A stretch of DNA of 64,000 nt. Origin: Kangiella geojedonensis (lineage in GTDB: Bacteria; Pseudomonadota; Gammaproteobacteria; Enterobacterales; Kangiellaceae). Location: positions 1,426,001 through 1,490,000 of the forward strand of contig NZ_CP010975.1 of assembly GCF_000981765.1 (NCBI RefSeq), written 5' to 3'. A program made the translations under genes and the position numbers. The notes beneath the pieces were generated by a model. That model was not told the DNA's origin, ran no database searches, and saw only the letters and a program-made list of their open reading frames with translations. Of the stretch, positions 2,292-33,639 are shown piece by piece (the first letter of the stretch is position 1; the number at the start of each line of letters is the position of its first letter).

Positions 2292-4961
2292 TTGCAGAAA
2301 TTATTCTTTAAAACCCTTGCGTTAATAACGTTACTTTCTATAAGTAGCCTACTGACGCTCGACGCATTGGCTAGCGATTTGAATAAGGAGCCGAAACGCT
2401 CTTTAAGGGTTGCTATGTTTAACGCTCCGCCCATCATGGTTGTCGAGCAAGACGGAACTAACGCAGGCTTCATGGTTGAACTCTTAGAAACCATGGCGGA
2501 AAAAGAAGGCTGGAACATAGAGTGGGTCAACCTCAATTGGCCAGAAGTCATACCAAAGACACTCAACCACGAACTCGATCTTATTCCCTTTATTGCTTAC
2601 TCAGAAGACCGTGCACAATATTTAGACTACAACGAGGAAGGTATTCTCACTGGATGGGGCCAAGTTTATGTTCACAAAGACGCCTTAGTCCCACAAAATA
2701 TCATTGCTTTATCCGGCAAGAAAATTGCAGTCATAAAAAACGAAGTCTATGGTATCAAGTTAAAAAACTTGTGCGATTTGTTTATTATAGAGTGTGATTT
2801 TGTAGAGTTCCAAACTTACAAGCAAGCTCTAGGGGCCATAGAATCAAAAGAAGTAGCGGCAGCTGTGACTAGCAATCTAGTGAGCTACAGCCACGATAAT
2901 CCTTATATAAAACAAACACCAATTGTTTTTGAGCCACGAAAAGTCCTTTTTGCCACTGCTAAAAATACCAATGCGGATCTTCTAGCCACTATAGATCGTT
3001 ATACGAAACTATGGCGCTTTGATGGAAGCTCCCCTTATTATCAACTTAAAGACAAATACTTAAAGGGAATTATAGCAGAAGAATCAGCGTTTCCTGCCTG
3101 GCTTGTATATACTTTGTTGATAGTGATAGGACTATTGTTTGTTGCCGCCTTGGTGGCTCTCCTTCTAAAAAAACAGGTAAAAAAGCAAACCCAAGATCTC
3201 GAAGATCAAAGCGATAAGATTCGGCAAATTATCAACTTAGTTCCACACATGATCTTTGCGACTAACACGAATGGGAAATTGATACTCGCGAACCGCTATG
3301 CTGCAGATTTCTTCGGTATCCCAATGTCTGAAATAGAGGGCTGCTCCCAAAAAGACTTAATTGATCACCATCCTAATTCAAAAAATATTTTTGAAGATGA
3401 AAGCTTACTTTTACGTAGAGACGCTCACGCTATACAAAAAGAGATTGAAATATATAATGTTGATGGCAGTAAAGTAACACTAAACATTTCAAAAGTACCT
3501 TTCATCACACGCTTTAGCAGAACGCCATCAGTAGTGACTGTAGGAGTAGATATTACCGACTCGAAGGAGTACGAGCGTCAGATTCAACACATGGCTCAGC
3601 ATGATTCATTAACCGAGCTCCCCAACCGTTTACTGCTTAATGATCGCATTCATCAATCTCTTGCCTTAACTAAACGTTATGGACACAGCGGCGCGGTTCT
3701 GTTCATTGATCTAGACTACTTTAAAACCATCAATGATTCACTGGGGCATATGGCTGGAGACACTTTGCTTCAAAAAGTCGCAGAGCGATTGCAAACTATT
3801 GTAAGAGAAGGCGACACAGTGTCTCGATTAGGCGGTGATGAGTTTATTGTGCAACTCAACCAGTTATCTGGAGACCCTAAGAAAGCAGAGCGAGTCGCTT
3901 GTAAAATTGCCGAAAAAATAAATTTCACTTTAGCGCAAGAATACAACGTTAGTGGCAACAAATTATTTTCCACAGCAAGTATCGGCATCGTGATTTACCC
4001 TAGAGACGCAGAGAATGAAGAAGCTATTATTCAACGTGCAGATACCGCCATGTATTATGCCAAGTCTATGGGCCGTAATCGTTATGCAGTATTCAAAAAA
4101 GCCATGGAAAAGGCGGTCGTTAGAAAGCATGTACTTGAAAAAGAGCTACGCAAAGCTCTAGCTGAATCACGCTTTATTATTAGATATCAGCCCCAAATTA
4201 CACAAGACGGAAACAAGTTTATTGGCGCCGAAGCTTTGCTCCGCTGGAGTCACCCGACTGAAGGAATTATATCTCCTGCTGAGTTTATACCTATTGCGGA
4301 AGAGAATCATTTAATTATCCCAATTGGCGAGTGGGTCTTAAAGCAGGTTTGCTACCAAATTAAACACTGGCTAGAACAACATGGGTACTCTCCTTTTATC
4401 ACCGTCAATTTATCCGTTGTTCAGATTCGCAATTCGGACCTGGTCAGCTACATCAAAAAACTTCTTGATCAAACTAAAATTCCTCCACAGCTACTTGAGC
4501 TAGAAGTGACAGAAACGGTCTTATTACATGAAGCAAGAGTGTCCATCGATATTCTCAATGAACTGAAAAAGCTGGGTGTAAAACTATCCATCGATGATTT
4601 TGGTACGGGTTACTCGTCATTAACCTACTTAAAAAAACTACCTCTCGACAAACTTAAAATTGATCGCTCTTTTGTAAAAGACGTACCAGGCGATCCTGAT
4701 AGTGAAACCATTATCCGAACAGTAATTGGCATGAGTCTTGATATGGGCTTAGAAGTTATTGCAGAAGGTGTAGAAACCAAAGAGCAGTTAGATTACTTAA
4801 TTAAAGAACACTGCAGTCTCTTCCAAGGCTTTTACTTTGACCCACCAATTTCTCTAGAGCAGTTAGAGGAAAAGTATTTTGCTAACCTCCACAAGTCAGT
4901 AACCAGTAACCCTAAAGTGGTTCATCTTGAAAACTATTCAAAGCGCACCAACAAAAAGTAA
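2292..4961 (+). CDS. Periplasmic-sensing GGDEF-EAL cyclic-di-GMP protein
   Basis: An 889-residue inner-membrane signalling protein. In order: a signal peptide (about 1-27), a periplasmic SBP_bac_3 ligand-binding domain (about 35-255), one membrane helix (about 268-290), a PAS domain (about 305-425), GGDEF (about 435-600) and EAL (about 615-870). The diguanylate cyclase site RLGGDEF is intact, and an inhibitory I-site RxxD (REGD) sits five residues before GGDEF. The phosphodiesterase side also looks intact: EALLRW, the DDFGTGYSSL motif, KIDRSF and EGVET. Both activities are therefore possible. The periplasmic domain probably senses an amino acid or similar small solute. The start is TTG with GAGGGG upstream. 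A terminator follows. Confidence 0.92.
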   Translation: MQKLFFKTLALITLLSISSLLTLDALASDLNKEPKRSLRVAMFNAPPIMVVEQDGTNAGFMVELLETMAEKEGWNIEWVNLNWPEVIPKTLNHELDLIPFIAYSEDRAQYLDYNEEGILTGWGQVYVHKDALVPQNIIALSGKKIAVIKNEVYGIKLKNLCDLFIIECDFVEFQTYKQALGAIESKEVAAAVTSNLVSYSHDNPYIKQTPIVFEPRKVLFATAKNTNADLLATIDRYTKLWRFDGSSPYYQLKDKYLKGIIAEESAFPAWLVYTLLIVIGLLFVAALVALLLKKQVKKQTQDLEDQSDKIRQIINLVPHMIFATNTNGKLILANRYAADFFGIPMSEIEGCSQKDLIDHHPNSKNIFEDESLLLRRDAHAIQKEIEIYNVDGSKVTLNISKVPFITRFSRTPSVVTVGVDITDSKEYERQIQHMAQHDSLTELPNRLLLNDRIHQSLALTKRYGHSGAVLFIDLDYFKTINDSLGHMAGDTLLQKVAERLQTIVREGDTVSRLGGDEFIVQLNQLSGDPKKAERVACKIAEKINFTLAQEYNVSGNKLFSTASIGIVIYPRDAENEEAIIQRADTAMYYAKSMGRNRYAVFKKAMEKAVVRKHVLEKELRKALAESRFIIRYQPQITQDGNKFIGAEALLRWSHPTEGIISPAEFIPIAEENHLIIPIGEWVLKQVCYQIKHWLEQHGYSPFITVNLSVVQIRNSDLVSYIKKLLDQTKIPPQLLELEVTETVLLHEARVSIDILNELKKLGVKLSIDDFGTGYSSLTYLKKLPLDKLKIDRSFVKDVPGDPDSETIIRTVIGMSLDMGLEVIAEGVETKEQLDYLIKEHCSLFQGFYFDPPISLEQLEEKYFANLHKSVTSNPKVVHLENYSKRTNKK

Positions 4962-4985: not shown

Positions 4986-5018
4986 AAAAGCCCGCTAATT
5001 AAGCGGGCTTTTTTTTGT
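4986..5018. terminator. Bidirectional terminator between the GGDEF-EAL gene and acnB
   Basis: AAGCCCGC / GCGGGCTT stem with an A-run on the left and eight or more Ts on the right. It lies between convergent genes and can stop both. Confidence 0.9.
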
Positions 5019-5047
5019 TTGCATTTGAAACTTACAAACAGTAGTGA

Positions 5048-7660
5048 CTAAGCACCGACAGTAACTTGGTTACTTACCGGAATAGTTACTTTGTTTGCTT
5101 GCTTCTTATACTCATCCATCTGATGGAAATTCATATAAACATAGATGTCATCAGCCATAGAGTCAATCTTATTAGCATACTCCATGTACTCTTCTACCGT
5201 CGGTAGTTTGCCCATCACCGCTGCAACAGACGCCAACTCAGCAGAAGCTAAGTAAACGTTAGCGCCCTGCCCTAAACGATTCGGGAAGTTACGCGTTGAA
5301 GTTGAAACCACTGTAGACTTCGGAGCAACACGTGCTTGGTTACCCATACACAATGAACACCCTGGCATCTCTAAGCGCGCGCCTGAACGACCGAAAGTGT
5401 TGTAGTGCCCTTCTTCCATCAACTGATGCTCATCCATCTTAGTTGGTGGCGCGATCCACAAGCGGGTTTGCAAAGTACCGGCTTCAATATCTTCTAGCAA
5501 TTTAGCTGCAGCACGGAAGTGACCAATGTTAGTCATGCAAGAACCGATGAAGACTTCATCAATCTTGTCACCAGCAACTTCGCTTAATAAGCGAGCATCA
5601 TCTGGATCGTTTGGCGCACAAAGAACAGGTTCTTTTAAGTTGTCCATGTCGATTTCGATAACTTCGGTATACTCAGCATCAGCATCAGCCGATAACAAGC
5701 TCGGGTTATCCAACCACTCTTGCATCTTCTCGATACGACGAGAAAGCGTACGCTCGTCACCATAACCGTTAGAGATCATCCACTTCAATAAGACAATATT
5801 TGACTCAAGGTATTCAGCAACTGACTCTTCGCTTAGCTTAATCGTACAACCTGCTGCAGAACGCTCTGCAGATGCGTCTGAAAGCTCAAACGCTTGCTCA
5901 GCGGTTAAGTCTTCTAGGCCTTCGATTTCAAGAATGCGACCCGAGAAAATGTTCTTCTTACCGGCTTTTTCTACGGTTAAGTGGCCATCTTTTATCGCTT
6001 GATAAGGAATCGCATGCACTAAATCACGCAAAGTAATACCCGGTTGACGCTTACCTTTAAAGCGAACCAATACTGACTCAGGCATATCCAAAGGCATAAC
6101 ACCCGTCGCAGCAGCGAATGCCACAAGACCCGAGCCTGCTGGGAAAGAAATCCCCAATGGGAAACGTGTATGTGAATCACCACCAGTACCGACAGTATCA
6201 GGAAGCAACATACGGTTTAACCAGCTGTGGATAATACCATCACCCGGACGTAATGAAACACCACCACGATTCATGATGAAATCAGGAAGCGTATGCTGAG
6301 TACCGACGTCAACTGGCTTTGGGTATGCTGCTGTGTGGCAGAATGACTGCATAACCAAGTCAGCAGAGAAACCTAAACATGCTAAATCTTTTAGCTCGTC
6401 ACGTGTCATAGGGCCAGTAGTATCTTGCGAGCCGACCGTTGTCATCTTAGGTACGCAGTACTGACCTGGGCGAACACCGTCTAGGCCACAAGCACGACCA
6501 ACCATTTTTTGCGCTAACGTATAGCCTTTGCCTGAATCGCTTACCTCTTCTGCATTACGGAATAAATCAGTCGCTTCTAAACCTAAATATTCACGAGCGC
6601 GCTCTGTTAAACCACGTCCAATGATTAGTGGGATACGACCGCCCGCTTGAACTTCGTCAAAAATCACTTTGCTACCGTATTCAAACTCAGCAATCACTTC
6701 ACCATTCTTAGTGACTTTTCCTTCATACGGATAGAAATCGATAACATCGCCCATTTCCATTTTAGACACATCAAGCTCTACCGGCATAGCGCCAGCATCT
6801 TTCATGGTGTTATAGAAAATTGGAGCAATGTTACTGCCGAAACAGAAACCACCTGCTCGCTTGTTTGGAACGTGAGGAATATCGTTACCCATCAACCACA
6901 ACACAGAGTTTGTCGCAGATTTACGAGAAGAACCAGTACCCACAACATCACCAACGTAAACGATTGGGTTGCCTTTCTCTTCTAACTTTTCAATAGTGCT
7001 AATAGGACCAATTTCACCCTCTTTGTCAGGATTAATACCCTCACGAGAGTTTTTCAACATCGCTAATGAGTGCAATGGAATATCAGGACGAGACCATGCA
7101 TCTTGTGCTGGTGATAAGTCATCAGTGTTAGTCTCACCAGGGACCTTAAAGACGGTTAATGTGATTTTTTCATCGAGTTTTGGCTTTTTCGTGAACCATT
7201 CACCTTCAGCCCAAGACTTGATGACGTCTTTTGCCACTTCGTTGCCAGCATCTGCTTTTTCAGCCACATCGTGGAAAGCATCAAACATTAACAAAGTATC
7301 TTTAAGTTTTTCACCAGCCAGTAAGTTCAATTCTTTATCATCAAGCAACTCTACTAGTGTTGCGATGTTGTAACCACCAAGCATTGTGCCTAGAAGTTTC
7401 ACAGCGTGTTCTTTGTCTACTAAAGGAGATTGTGCCTCACCCTTTGCAATCGCCGCTAAAAAGCCAGCTTTAACATAAGCGGCTTCATCAACACCTGGAG
7501 GCACACGATCAGTTAATAGTTCTACTAAAAACTCTTCTTCACCTGCTGGTGGATTTTTCAAAAGTTCAACAAGCTCATTGACTTGCTCGGCGCTCAAAGG
7601 CAAAGGTGGAATACCTTGCTCAGCACGTTCTGCTACATGTTTTCTGTATGCTTCTAACAC
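5048..7660 (-). CDS. acnB: Bifunctional aconitate hydratase 2 / 2-methylisocitrate dehydratase
   Basis: AcnB interconverts citrate and isocitrate in the TCA cycle and can act on 2-methylisocitrate. It is cytoplasmic. At 870 residues it matches the family length (E. coli AcnB 865). The order is the AcnB order: N-terminal HEAT-like domain, swivel domain (about 160-370), then the three catalytic domains. The [4Fe-4S] ligands are visible as C708 in GSCMTN and C768/C771 in PGCSLCMGNQ. The start is GTG with GAGG about 10 bases upstream, giving MLEAYRKHVAERAEQG, which matches the known AcnB N-terminus. It is a single gene with divergent CigR-like gene upstream. Confidence 0.98.
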   Translation of the reverse strand: MLEAYRKHVAERAEQGIPPLPLSAEQVNELVELLKNPPAGEEEFLVELLTDRVPPGVDEAAYVKAGFLAAIAKGEAQSPLVDKEHAVKLLGTMLGGYNIATLVELLDDKELNLLAGEKLKDTLLMFDAFHDVAEKADAGNEVAKDVIKSWAEGEWFTKKPKLDEKITLTVFKVPGETNTDDLSPAQDAWSRPDIPLHSLAMLKNSREGINPDKEGEIGPISTIEKLEEKGNPIVYVGDVVGTGSSRKSATNSVLWLMGNDIPHVPNKRAGGFCFGSNIAPIFYNTMKDAGAMPVELDVSKMEMGDVIDFYPYEGKVTKNGEVIAEFEYGSKVIFDEVQAGGRIPLIIGRGLTERAREYLGLEATDLFRNAEEVSDSGKGYTLAQKMVGRACGLDGVRPGQYCVPKMTTVGSQDTTGPMTRDELKDLACLGFSADLVMQSFCHTAAYPKPVDVGTQHTLPDFIMNRGGVSLRPGDGIIHSWLNRMLLPDTVGTGGDSHTRFPLGISFPAGSGLVAFAAATGVMPLDMPESVLVRFKGKRQPGITLRDLVHAIPYQAIKDGHLTVEKAGKKNIFSGRILEIEGLEDLTAEQAFELSDASAERSAAGCTIKLSEESVAEYLESNIVLLKWMISNGYGDERTLSRRIEKMQEWLDNPSLLSADADAEYTEVIEIDMDNLKEPVLCAPNDPDDARLLSEVAGDKIDEVFIGSCMTNIGHFRAAAKLLEDIEAGTLQTRLWIAPPTKMDEHQLMEEGHYNTFGRSGARLEMPGCSLCMGNQARVAPKSTVVSTSTRNFPNRLGQGANVYLASAELASVAAVMGKLPTVEEYMEYANKIDSMADDIYVYMNFHQMDEYKKQANKVTIPVSNQVTVGA

Positions 7661-9960: not shown

Positions 9961-11124
9961 ATGGCGAAAATTCAATCAAGTATGTTAGGCGATATTAGTC
10001 CGGAGGAGTTTCTTTCGGACTACTGGCAAAAGAAGCCACTACTCATTCGAGGTGGTTTCTCAGCCGACCCTGCGTTGATTACTCCAGAGGAGTTAGCCGG
10101 CTACAGTTTAGATGATGATATTGAATCACGTCTCATCCAACACAACTCTCAGCAACAACGCTGGCAGTTATCACATGGGCCACTTGAAGAAACTGTTTTT
10201 GAAGAATTAGGAGAGAAGAACTGGACTCTGCTGGTACAATCTCTAGACTACTTCCACCCTCCTCTTCAAGAACTCACCAAAGCCTGTAACTTTTTACCTC
10301 GATGGCGCTTAGACGACATTATGGTCTCCTTCGCTACAGCCCATGGTGGCGTCGGTCCACATTTGGATAAATACGATGTCTTTCTAGTCCAAGGCCAAGG
10401 TCAAAGACGTTGGCGCGTTGGCTTTAAAGATCAAAAAGTCAGCACTCTCAATCCGCATCCACAAATCGCTCAGGTTGCACCATTTGAGGCAACTATGGAT
10501 GTTATTGTCAGTCCTGGTGATGTGCTTTATATCCCGCCTAACACGCCACACTGGGGCGTTTCTGTGGATAACAGCATTACCTATTCCATTGGCTTTAGAG
10601 CACCGAATATTGGCTCTATTCTTGATTCAGCCCTCAGCTCTGCATCTCTGGAGTTTGATAGCCTGTGGCAAGACAGTGGTAAGCTTAAGAAATACCATGC
10701 CTTTGGGGCGTTACATTCAGAAATGCCTGACTGGGCGCTTGGCGAGCTTCAACACTTACTCAACCGAAGAGAATTGCTTATTGCCGCAGGCAAAACAGTA
10801 ACCGAGCTTAAATACCCTGAGGCTCTCGAACCAGTAAACTTGCCTAAGTCACAGGAATTATCAGAGATTGCTCTAACTGAGGGCGTTGAGTTAAATTTAT
10901 TAGCTCGAATTGCTTACTTTGAACATGAGCAAGCCTTATTAACATTCATCAATGGCGTTTACTTCCAGTTCCCGAAAGGTCTCGAGCAAGCCATTCAAAC
11001 CTTGAATCAAAAACACAGACTGACACCCGAAGATTTGTCTGAACTTCCGCGTTTACCGTTAGGTGAATTTCTAACACACGGAATCGCGCTCGGTGCGCTG
11101 ACGTTAAGTAATTCCGATAGCTAA
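9961..11124 (+). CDS. roxA: JmjC-type ribosomal protein uL16 3-hydroxylase (RoxA/YcfD)
   Basis: A 387-residue Fe(II)/2-oxoglutarate oxygenase of the YcfD group, which hydroxylates an arginine of ribosomal protein L16. The cupin iron triad is visible as H134 and D136 (GPHLDKYD) and H197 (PPNTPHWG). The N-terminus (SPEEFLSDYWQKKPLLIRGG) is typical of the family. The C-terminal winged-helix part extends to the end. No strong ribosome site precedes the ATG at 9961; an alternative ATG lies 21 bases further in. It sits between purB and the MATE gene with short gaps (21 and 19 bases), suggesting one operon. Confidence 0.92.
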   Translation: MAKIQSSMLGDISPEEFLSDYWQKKPLLIRGGFSADPALITPEELAGYSLDDDIESRLIQHNSQQQRWQLSHGPLEETVFEELGEKNWTLLVQSLDYFHPPLQELTKACNFLPRWRLDDIMVSFATAHGGVGPHLDKYDVFLVQGQGQRRWRVGFKDQKVSTLNPHPQIAQVAPFEATMDVIVSPGDVLYIPPNTPHWGVSVDNSITYSIGFRAPNIGSILDSALSSASLEFDSLWQDSGKLKKYHAFGALHSEMPDWALGELQHLLNRRELLIAAGKTVTELKYPEALEPVNLPKSQELSEIALTEGVELNLLARIAYFEHEQALLTFINGVYFQFPKGLEQAIQTLNQKHRLTPEDLSELPRLPLGEFLTHGIALGALTLSNSDS

Positions 11125-32278: not shown

Positions 32279-32701
32279 GTGACTAAAATGACCGTTGGTT
32301 GGAAAGAAGAAGCGAAACTCCCTGAGCTCAGCATCGATCCCATAAAAGTTAAAGTTGATACTGGCGCAAAAACTTCCAGCTTACATGCTTTTGATATAGA
32401 GTCATTCGACAAAAATGGCATAAATTTCGTTAGGTTTAAAACTTGTCCTTACAAGCGCCATCCCAAAAAAGAGGTTACTTGTGAATCTCAGGTCGTTGAC
32501 TATCGAAAGATCACAAGCTCAAATGGCCAGACGCAACTGAGGTATGTCATCAGGACCCCCATTACCATTGGCGATAAAACCTGGGATATAGACATTAGCC
32601 TAGCTAACCGCAAAAAAATGCGGTACAAGATGCTACTAGGGCGAGAAGCCATGGATGATATTCTTGTATCCCCCCATAAGTCATACTTACAATCCGATTA
32701 A
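32279..32701 (+). CDS. rimB: RimB-like retropepsin-type protease (PF05618)
   Basis: A 140-residue protein of the ATP-dependent zinc protease / RimB (PF05618) family. The aspartic-protease active-site loop is KVDTGAKTSSLHAF (Asp about residue 25). In organisms with rimK, such proteins can trim glutamates or help RimK. The GTG at 32279 has AGGAG 10 bases upstream; an ATG 9 bases in is possible. It forms an operon with rimK. The pairing with RimK is known biology; its activity here is inference. Confidence 0.85.
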   Translation: MTKMTVGWKEEAKLPELSIDPIKVKVDTGAKTSSLHAFDIESFDKNGINFVRFKTCPYKRHPKKEVTCESQVVDYRKITSSNGQTQLRYVIRTPITIGDKTWDIDISLANRKKMRYKMLLGREAMDDILVSPHKSYLQSD

Positions 32702-32708
32702 GCGAGAC

Positions 32709-32737
32709 TTGCTATAAACACAAGTTTCCGCTATCTT
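32709..32737 (+). promoter_or_regulatory. tRNA-type promoter upstream of the tRNA-Ser locus
   Basis: TTGCTA, 17 bases, TATCTT, then a GC-rich discriminator ACGCGCCC. The start is predicted near 32744, about 45 bases before the truncated tRNA copy and 214 bases before the intact tRNA. Confidence 0.6.
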
Positions 32738-32787
32738 ACGCGCCCTAAGAGCTGCTGCTTGAAATCAGTTTAAAGCTCAGAGTACAC

Positions 32788-32814
32788 ATTACGGTGAAGT
32801 GGCCGAGTGGCTGA
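32788..32814 (+). repeat. Truncated duplicate of the tRNA-Ser 5' end
   Basis: A 27-bp exact copy of 32953-32979: five bases before the tRNA plus its first 22 bases (GGTGAAGTGGCCGAGTGGCT and two more). The tRNA sequence stops here and is not continued. The copies are 165 bases apart, start to start. Confidence 0.9.
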
Positions 32815-32952
32815 CAAACCAAAGGTTTGAACGCTGGGGCTATGCACCAGCGGCCCGAAGGGCGAGAAAGCGACAGCTTTCGAGTAACGCGCACGCAGAA
32901 GTGCGCCGATAAGACAAAGTAGCAGATGCCACAAAGCATCTCGAAATAACAA
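32815..32952 (+). repeat. Chain of six small hairpins between the tRNA-Ser copies
   Basis: 138 bases of consecutive near-perfect hairpins: CAAACC/GGTTTG (32815-32829), CGCTGG/CCAGCG (32832-32852), GCCC/GGGC (32853-32863), GAAAGC/GCTTTC (32866-32881), GCGCAC/GTGCGC (32889-32906), AGATGC/GCATCT (32924-32941). Loops are 3-9 bases. No open frame of interest and no known RNA family is recognised. Confidence 0.75.
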
Positions 32953-32957
32953 ATTAC

Positions 32958-33048
32958 GGTGAAGTGGCCGAGTGGCTGAAGGCGCACGCCTGGAAAGTGT
33001 GTATACGTTTGTAGCGTATCGAGGGTTCGAATCCCTCCTTCACCGCCA
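32958..33048 (+). tRNA. tRNA-Ser (anticodon GGA)
   Basis: A 91-base tRNA with encoded CCA. The acceptor stem GGTGAAG pairs with CTTCACC; the D-loop is GCCGAGTGGCTGAAGGC; the anticodon loop CTGGAAA gives GGA; the long variable arm is of the class II serine type; T-loop GGTTCGAATC. It reads UCC/UCU codons. It lies downstream of the duplicated 5' end and hairpin chain, and is followed by a terminator. Confidence 0.97.
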
Positions 33049-33056
33049 TACAATAA

Positions 33057-33083
33057 ATACCCGCCTTGTGCGGGTATTTTTTT
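33057..33083 (+). terminator. Terminator of tRNA-Ser
   Basis: ATACCCGC / GCGGGTAT stem followed by seven Ts, 9 bases after the CCA. Confidence 0.9.
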
Positions 33084-33183
33084 ATCCGTGATAGCATTGT
33101 TAGAAATTTGCCTTTGATCTCAGTTTTGATTAACCTACCCAGTAAATGAGAATACTTCTCAATAATGGGCAAAGGAAGACACT

Positions 33184-33639
33184 ATGAAAAAACTCTTTAT
33201 CACTATTACTCTTATATTATGCTTCTCTACCACTATATCAGCTAGGGAGTTAACGCTAGGAGAGCCAGTTAAAATGGGCTTAGTAGAGTCTATGGAAACC
33301 CTATTAGCTCAGCCAGAAACTTACATCGGAAAAGAAATCACGGTTAAGGGCAAAATAGGAAAAGTCTGTAAAAAGCGTGGATGTTGGGCAGACTTTGTTG
33401 TTGGAGATAAAAAACTAAGAGTTAAAGTAGAAGATGGCGAAATAGAAATTCCATTATCTGCTATTGGCTCCGATGCATACGCCACTGGAGTGTTAAGCTC
33501 GATAGAGTTTACGAAAGAGCAAACGATAGCTTACCTAGAGCATATGGCTGAAGATGCCGGCGAAAAGTTTGATCCTAACACCGTGGAACAAGGGATGACT
33601 TTATACCAACTCCAGTCAGGTTCAGTAAAAATACTATAA
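33184..33639 (+). CDS. DUF4920 family exported protein
   Basis: A 151-residue protein with a Sec signal peptide (cleavage after TISA, about residue 20). The mature part is an OB-fold-like DUF4920 domain with the motif KVCKKRGCWADF (two Cys and a Trp) at about 58-69. Members are found in periplasmic or surface proteins of marine bacteria, and the CxxxxCW motif suggests metal or heme binding, but function is not established. AAAGGAAGAC precedes the ATG. Single gene between two terminators. Confidence 0.8.
   Translation: MKKLFITITLILCFSTTISARELTLGEPVKMGLVESMETLLAQPETYIGKEITVKGKIGKVCKKRGCWADFVVGDKKLRVKVEDGEIEIPLSAIGSDAYATGVLSSIEFTKEQTIAYLEHMAEDAGEKFDPNTVEQGMTLYQLQSGSVKIL

Follow-up and report, generated by a model that had tools for sequence, protein, structure and literature searches.

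In Kangiella geojedonensis, the leader between the promoter and the gene for tRNA-Ser(GGA) holds a truncated duplicate of that tRNA, with an RtT-type chain of hairpins seated in its D-loop. By sequence comparison, the four-hairpin core of this unit belongs to a gammaproteobacterial family that includes the tyrT/RtT repeats of Escherichia coli, and the unit itself is a D-loop, upstream variant of that family, a layout that occurs outside Kangiella as well. In the window, by which we mean the whole stretch of 64,000 nucleotides analysed, ARAGORN found tRNA-Ser(GGA) (32958-33048) as the sole tRNA, and one 165-bp unit lies between it and its promoter (32709-32737), marked by a 27-bp exact direct repeat (32788-32814 and 32953-32979) with a spacing of 165 bp (31 bp at 97%). 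The features of the locus are as follows.

32709-32737, + strand: promoter TTGCTA-17-TATCTT of the tRNA-Ser(GGA) gene, read from the sequence
32788-32814, + strand: repeat copy 1, 5 nt of leader plus nt 1-22 of tRNA-Ser, ending in the D-loop (...GGCTGA)
32815-32829, + strand: hairpin 1, CAAACC/GGTTTG
32832-32852, + strand: hairpin 2, CGCTGG/CCAGCG
32853-32863, + strand: hairpin 3, GCCC/GGGC
32866-32881, + strand: hairpin 4, GAAAGC/GCTTTC, followed by GAGTAA, the end of the four-hairpin core
32886-32906, + strand: the following tRNA stretch in copy (AACGCGCACGC; its counterpart at 32979-32989 reads AAGGCGCACGC), together with an inverted copy
32889-32906, + strand: hairpin 5, formed by the copy of the next tRNA stretch and its inverted copy
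32907-32952, + strand: species-variable spacer, containing hairpin 6 (32924-32941)
32953-32979, + strand: repeat copy 2, within the intact gene
32958-33048, + strand: intact tRNA-Ser(GGA)
33055-33079, + strand: intrinsic terminator

An earlier, sequence-only reading of this DNA had described an exact 27-bp repeat around a chain of six hairpins, five of them with 6-bp stems, placed between the tRNA and its promoter and followed by a terminator. The repeat, its spacing and the terminator were all recovered, and the position of an element between promoter and tRNA is supported. The centroid fold of the 165-nt unit agrees with the described hairpins: besides the D-arm hairpin that belongs to the tRNA piece it shows six more, one with a 4-bp stem and the other five with stems of 6 bp, and its energy of -57.9 kcal/mol was lower than that of all 200 shuffles (-42.5 +/- 3.4 kcal/mol; z -4.57; 0/200 as low). 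The promoter proposed upstream of the first copy also holds, although a generic promoter scan found no + strand promoter: TTGCTA-17-TATCTT recurs 5' of the orthologous tRNA in congeners, whether or not they have the insert, with TTGC in 17 of the 18 congeners examined (G007 lacks it) and TATCTTAC, the very string used as the query, in 18 of 18. Where a long target duplication had been suggested, the duplication stands, and what was duplicated is better described as the 5' end of the tRNA, whose D-loop holds the chain, since the chain is followed by a copy of the adjoining tRNA stretch, reading CGCGCACGC for GGCGCACGC. Sub-threshold matches to Rfam sX4 (RF02223) were seen over ordinary tRNA-Ser genes (L106 36-200, L183 1641-1788 and window 32940-33078).

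The same reading knew of no described element with this make-up; this is contradicted by the match of the chain to the E. coli tyrT/RtT repeats. Homology with RtT is indicated by two models. R1, built from seven T-loop copies only, recovered the window copy (E 0.0015, and 7.5e-4 in another search); a further R1 match at window 2375-2472 (E 0.051) was dropped as chance. R2, built from 30 copies with the window copy among them and giving rough E-values, matched both the four units of the E. coli K-12 tyrT/tyrV 178-bp repeats (39.0-44.7 bits) and the window copy (48.8 bits, E 2.8e-10), the latter score not being independent, as this copy is in the training set. A homologue search in related genomes, for which the reading had called, found a chain family: at E up to 0.001, R2 matched 161/369 class genomes, 18/20 genus genomes and 78/299 phylum genomes. 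Rfam RtT (RttR; RF00391) gave no match at E up to 1 over 32500-33300; on seven sources it scored the K-12 units at 133-138 bits, remained below its cut-off of 45 for L218 (44.2), L106 (35.1) and L095 (34.7), and left L104, L183 and L140 unmatched at E up to 0.01. Within the E. coli collection, a tyrT unit was found in 4655 of 5426 genomes, at 1-9 places (median 2); 771 genomes were without a match, and 18 places were on plasmids.

The window unit and tyrT/RtT share the four-hairpin chain, tandem units of like period and a tRNA end in every unit. They differ in that E. coli copies the tRNA 3' end, seats the chain in the T-loop and places its units after the tRNA, whereas the window unit copies the 5' end, carries the chain in the D-loop and precedes the tRNA. 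The same order of chain is found in AaHKsRNA22 of Aggregatibacter (RF02902), although the window copy scores only 31.7 bits with this model (E 6.4e-4), below the gathering score of 39.8. Over 274 class genomes, RF02902 had matches in 9 (E up to 0.001). Among them, G043 has 13 copies, which are dispersed, with a tRNA within the locus in 1/13, and all start at GTGCGGT, yet the Rfam model itself opens with such a word; the matches outside G043 lie mostly beside tRNA-Ser, tRNA-Arg or tmRNA.

Two layouts were distinguished. The usual one, here called T-type, lies downstream of tRNAs or tmRNA: an intact tRNA and usually a terminator are followed by GGTTCGA, the chain and ATCC...CCA, that is, by a copy of the tRNA 3' end whose T-loop holds the chain; by eye, this is often preceded by an inverted stretch of that 3' end. 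The copied last 18 nt of 41 T-types scored a mean of 0.88 against the adjacent tRNA and 0.56 against tRNAs for other amino acids, and a terminator-like hairpin separates tRNA and chain in 27 of the 35 T-type loci scanned. Of the 93 R2 matches from L100-L159 (24 further matches in other loci are not counted), 71 lie no more than 400 bp from a tRNA or tmRNA and share its strand in every case; the other 22 have no such neighbour, seven of them being on short pieces. Five of the 93 are T-loop copies upstream of the intact gene. Dispersed chain copies away from tRNAs exist. In G010 and G016 (L137 and L138), a T-type chain follows tRNA-Tyr, the same tRNA as at the E. coli tyrT repeats, within a Thr-Tyr-Gly-Thr tRNA cluster.

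The D-type, the layout of the window, runs from a tRNA 5' end to GGCTGA, the chain and ACGCGC, upstream of an intact tRNA. Its strict pattern gave 11 matches in 10/369 class genomes, with a real chain in seven genomes (G000, G075, G186, G192, G322, G348 and G404) and four matches that look like chance. In the named genomes, a set overlapping in part with the class genomes, 15 of 19 pattern matches have the chain, all in Gammaproteobacteria, with Kangiella, Sedimenticola, a Xanthomonadales MAG and an Ectothiorhodospiraceae MAG among the hosts; the other four, labelled Planctomycetota, Actibacterium, Ruegeria and Actinoplanes, have no chain. The seat of the chain in tRNA loops is seen most directly at L218, whose contig is also that of the G322 match: a copy of tRNA-Ser(GCT) has a chain in each of its D- and T-loops and is followed by the intact gene. 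In the light of this double-loop copy, the window unit is a shortened tRNA copy. The open-access literature gave us no recognisable description of the D-loop, upstream version, a weak negative, and the pattern of the tyrT/RtT family is broader than what we found described there.

The orthologous tRNA-Ser(GGA) is present in all 20 genus genomes, and its upstream site is either empty or filled with one to three units. The distance from the -10 box to the tRNA was measured in 18 congeners: it is 17-64 bp, with no unit, in 10 and 160-547 bp in 8, of which G007 has a remnant only; the units of G005 and G008, two genomes outside this measurement, were seen separately. Three tandem units occur in G018 and G011, two contigs of G008 end within a unit array, and the window genome has one unit. 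The alternative suggestion that the segment is a remnant of a 165-bp tandem unit is supported by these triple and empty sites. The tRNA pieces of the units follow the host tRNA, with GCGCAC in the window's set and GAGCAC in G011, G016 and G019, and the copied 5' piece has diverged from the tRNA in G008, G011 and G016 and is therefore not kept as a tRNA. R2 found two further chain copies in the window genome, in tandem downstream of tRNA-Val(GAC). As the MAFFT alignment of the D-types misaligned hairpins 1 and 4, and 6 of its 19 sources gave no unit, nine Kangiella units were read stem by stem instead; their hairpin 1 comes in three sequence versions of 6 bp each, with one G-U (G016). The single unit at the site in the window genome would fit a one-off local rearrangement of no wider meaning, which the sequence-only reading had kept in view, but a family with covarying stems extends across the class and the same layout recurs in other genera, and we give this explanation practically no credence.

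The covariation analysis, which the same reading had proposed, was made on a family alignment of 98 distinct rows, in which 23 of 24 stem pairs change on both sides, pairing stands at 95.7% and double-change cells number 612 against 181 in shuffles, the alignment used for pair counts being fitted to the model, which favours pairing, and the rows being related. The stems covary almost wholly through Watson-Crick double changes. In helices 1, 2 and 4, only 14 of 1735 standard pairs are G-U (0.8%), and G-U makes up 5-6% in the tRNA stems (60/995) and the terminators (22/462) of the same loci; helix 3 has 37 in 375, with 36 concentrated at a single outer pair. Because the rows are related, the p-value of the G-U comparison is not a true probability. 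Such scarcity of G-U in covarying stems hints at palindromes of DNA rather than RNA. Taken together, the scarcity of G-U, the terminator-like hairpins before 27/35 T-types and the dispersed copies favour DNA palindromes.

Two of the four loops strongly keep GGA while the stems vary freely. The motif is present in the hairpin 1 loop in 82/98 rows and in the hairpin 4 loop in 80/98, with loop shuffles giving 18.8 and 25.6, and it occurs in the loops of hairpins 2 and 3 in 2/98 and 3/98. By eye, 9 of 12 D-types outside Kangiella have GGA in hairpin 1. This constraint on the loops suggests that a protein binds the DNA or the RNA, and it tells against the DNA reading in that an RNA-binding protein would suit it too. 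Hairpin 4 often reads CAnGGATG, which we take to resemble the CsrA/RsmA motif. Hairpins 1 and 4 of the window unit are without GGA and, by eye, so are those of the E. coli tyrT units. A CsrA/RsmA decoy as the general function was rejected, GGA being strong across the family and absent from both of these.

These results bear on the view that the unit encodes a functional RtT-like small RNA, produced along with the tRNA. Enzymes of tRNA processing would set it free, and it would work in trans, for instance in the stringent response or, by way of GGA hairpin loops, as a CsrA/RsmA decoy. PMC4986893 describes RtT as an RNA that is released from tRNA transcripts and linked to the stringent response, and reports relatives on Northern blots in Actinobacillus pleuropneumoniae; in PMC8092127, RtT is raised at 10 degrees in Thioalkalivibrio. 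This reported expression, the position of the window unit between promoter and tRNA, the strong covariation of the stems and the GGA enrichment of loops 1 and 4, and not 2 and 3, would all suit such an RNA. Against them stand the near absence of G-U, the lack of GGA in the window and E. coli units, the 27 of 35 T-type units behind a terminator and the 10 of 18 congeners that have no unit at tRNA-Ser(GGA), and we regard a trans-acting RNA as rather unlikely, though a serious contender.

We lean, by a small measure, towards a palindromic DNA cassette that was inserted in a tRNA loop, with a duplication keeping the tRNA intact and arrays changing in length by recombination. The account builds on the relatedness of the chains, their position in D- and T-loops of tRNA copies, the filled, empty and tandem states of the site within the genus and the covarying palindromes. 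A palindromic cassette of about 75 bp would have entered the D-loop of one tRNA copy, and either a tandem duplication or an insertion bringing its own copy of the tRNA end would have left an intact tRNA next to it. Copies may then be gained or lost as 165-bp units recombine. Copying or selection would act on hairpins of single-stranded DNA, and the cassette presumably is or was mobile. The unit would be transcribed, and RNase P might trim the insert off, so that it is tolerated. Neither a target duplication nor a fresh insertion was caught in the compared genomes.

The REP/BIME palindromes moved by RAYT (Y1) transposases are likewise extragenic DNA palindromes in many copies; PMC2965389 notes that attenuator candidates belonging to BIMEs resemble rtT-like elements. 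They differ from the window family, which is a fixed four-hairpin chain seated in tRNA loops and whose window genome has no Y1 gene. A search for Y1 transposases gave 0 matches in that genome (G000) but did find such genes in 7/20 congeners, and in these seven the family has more copies (p 0.025 by a Mann-Whitney test over 20 related genomes). A Y1/RAYT enzyme was nevertheless rejected as the mobiliser, because none of the four Y1 loci checked is flanked by a chain and as many as 9 family copies occur in genomes that lack Y1.

Integrases recombine at tRNA genes and restore the gene. By analogy, circular DNAs made of chain, spacer and tRNA end could recombine with the 5' end (D-type) or 3' end (T-type) of a tRNA by site-specific recombination. 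The structure of the units fits integration at GGCTGA/AGGC or GGTTCGA/ATCC with the tRNA restored, and there are tandem copies as well as, in G175, two like units 5.1 kb apart. The units are, however, very small (about 140-180 bp), one exact T-type subtype pattern found no match in viral contigs, and no integrase is among the six neighbouring proteins that were scanned (RimK, a Zn protease, DUF4920, a histidine methyltransferase, an FGE-sulfatase-like protein and alkaline phosphatase), so that mini-elements of this kind seem quite improbable. A genomic-island att site was rejected on the same scan.

Extending the preferred reading, that of an inserted DNA cassette, to the whole class, we put forward tentatively, and with the balance against it, that small palindromic cassettes insert, as single-stranded DNA, into loops of genes able to form hairpins at the DNA level: tRNA D- and T-loops, tmRNA and terminator palindromes. 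If so, RtT RNA, which in E. coli has been investigated for a regulatory role, would be the transcribed trace of a mobile element. The tyrT repeats, an old oddity, can in any case be seen as one branch of a family detected in 161/369 sampled gammaproteobacterial species and placed in D- or T-loops to either side of tRNA genes. Their origin thereby becomes testable, through what places a palindrome in a tRNA loop and whether it is the DNA or the RNA that is maintained. In the 5' variant, moreover, a tRNA gene works behind a palindromic leader of up to about half a kilobase.

Two loci are unusual in their arrangement. At L085 of G175, the two units 5.1 kb apart (5008-5098 and 10120-10210) have equal R2 scores of 99.8 bits; the first follows tRNA-Ser(GGA), two more units and several genes lie between the outer pair, and the region is perhaps a former island. 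G011 has twelve similar dispersed repeats (L161, L163-L169 and L172-L175), in which two chains stand head to head, inverted; they have one sharp edge and resemble a miniature transposable element.
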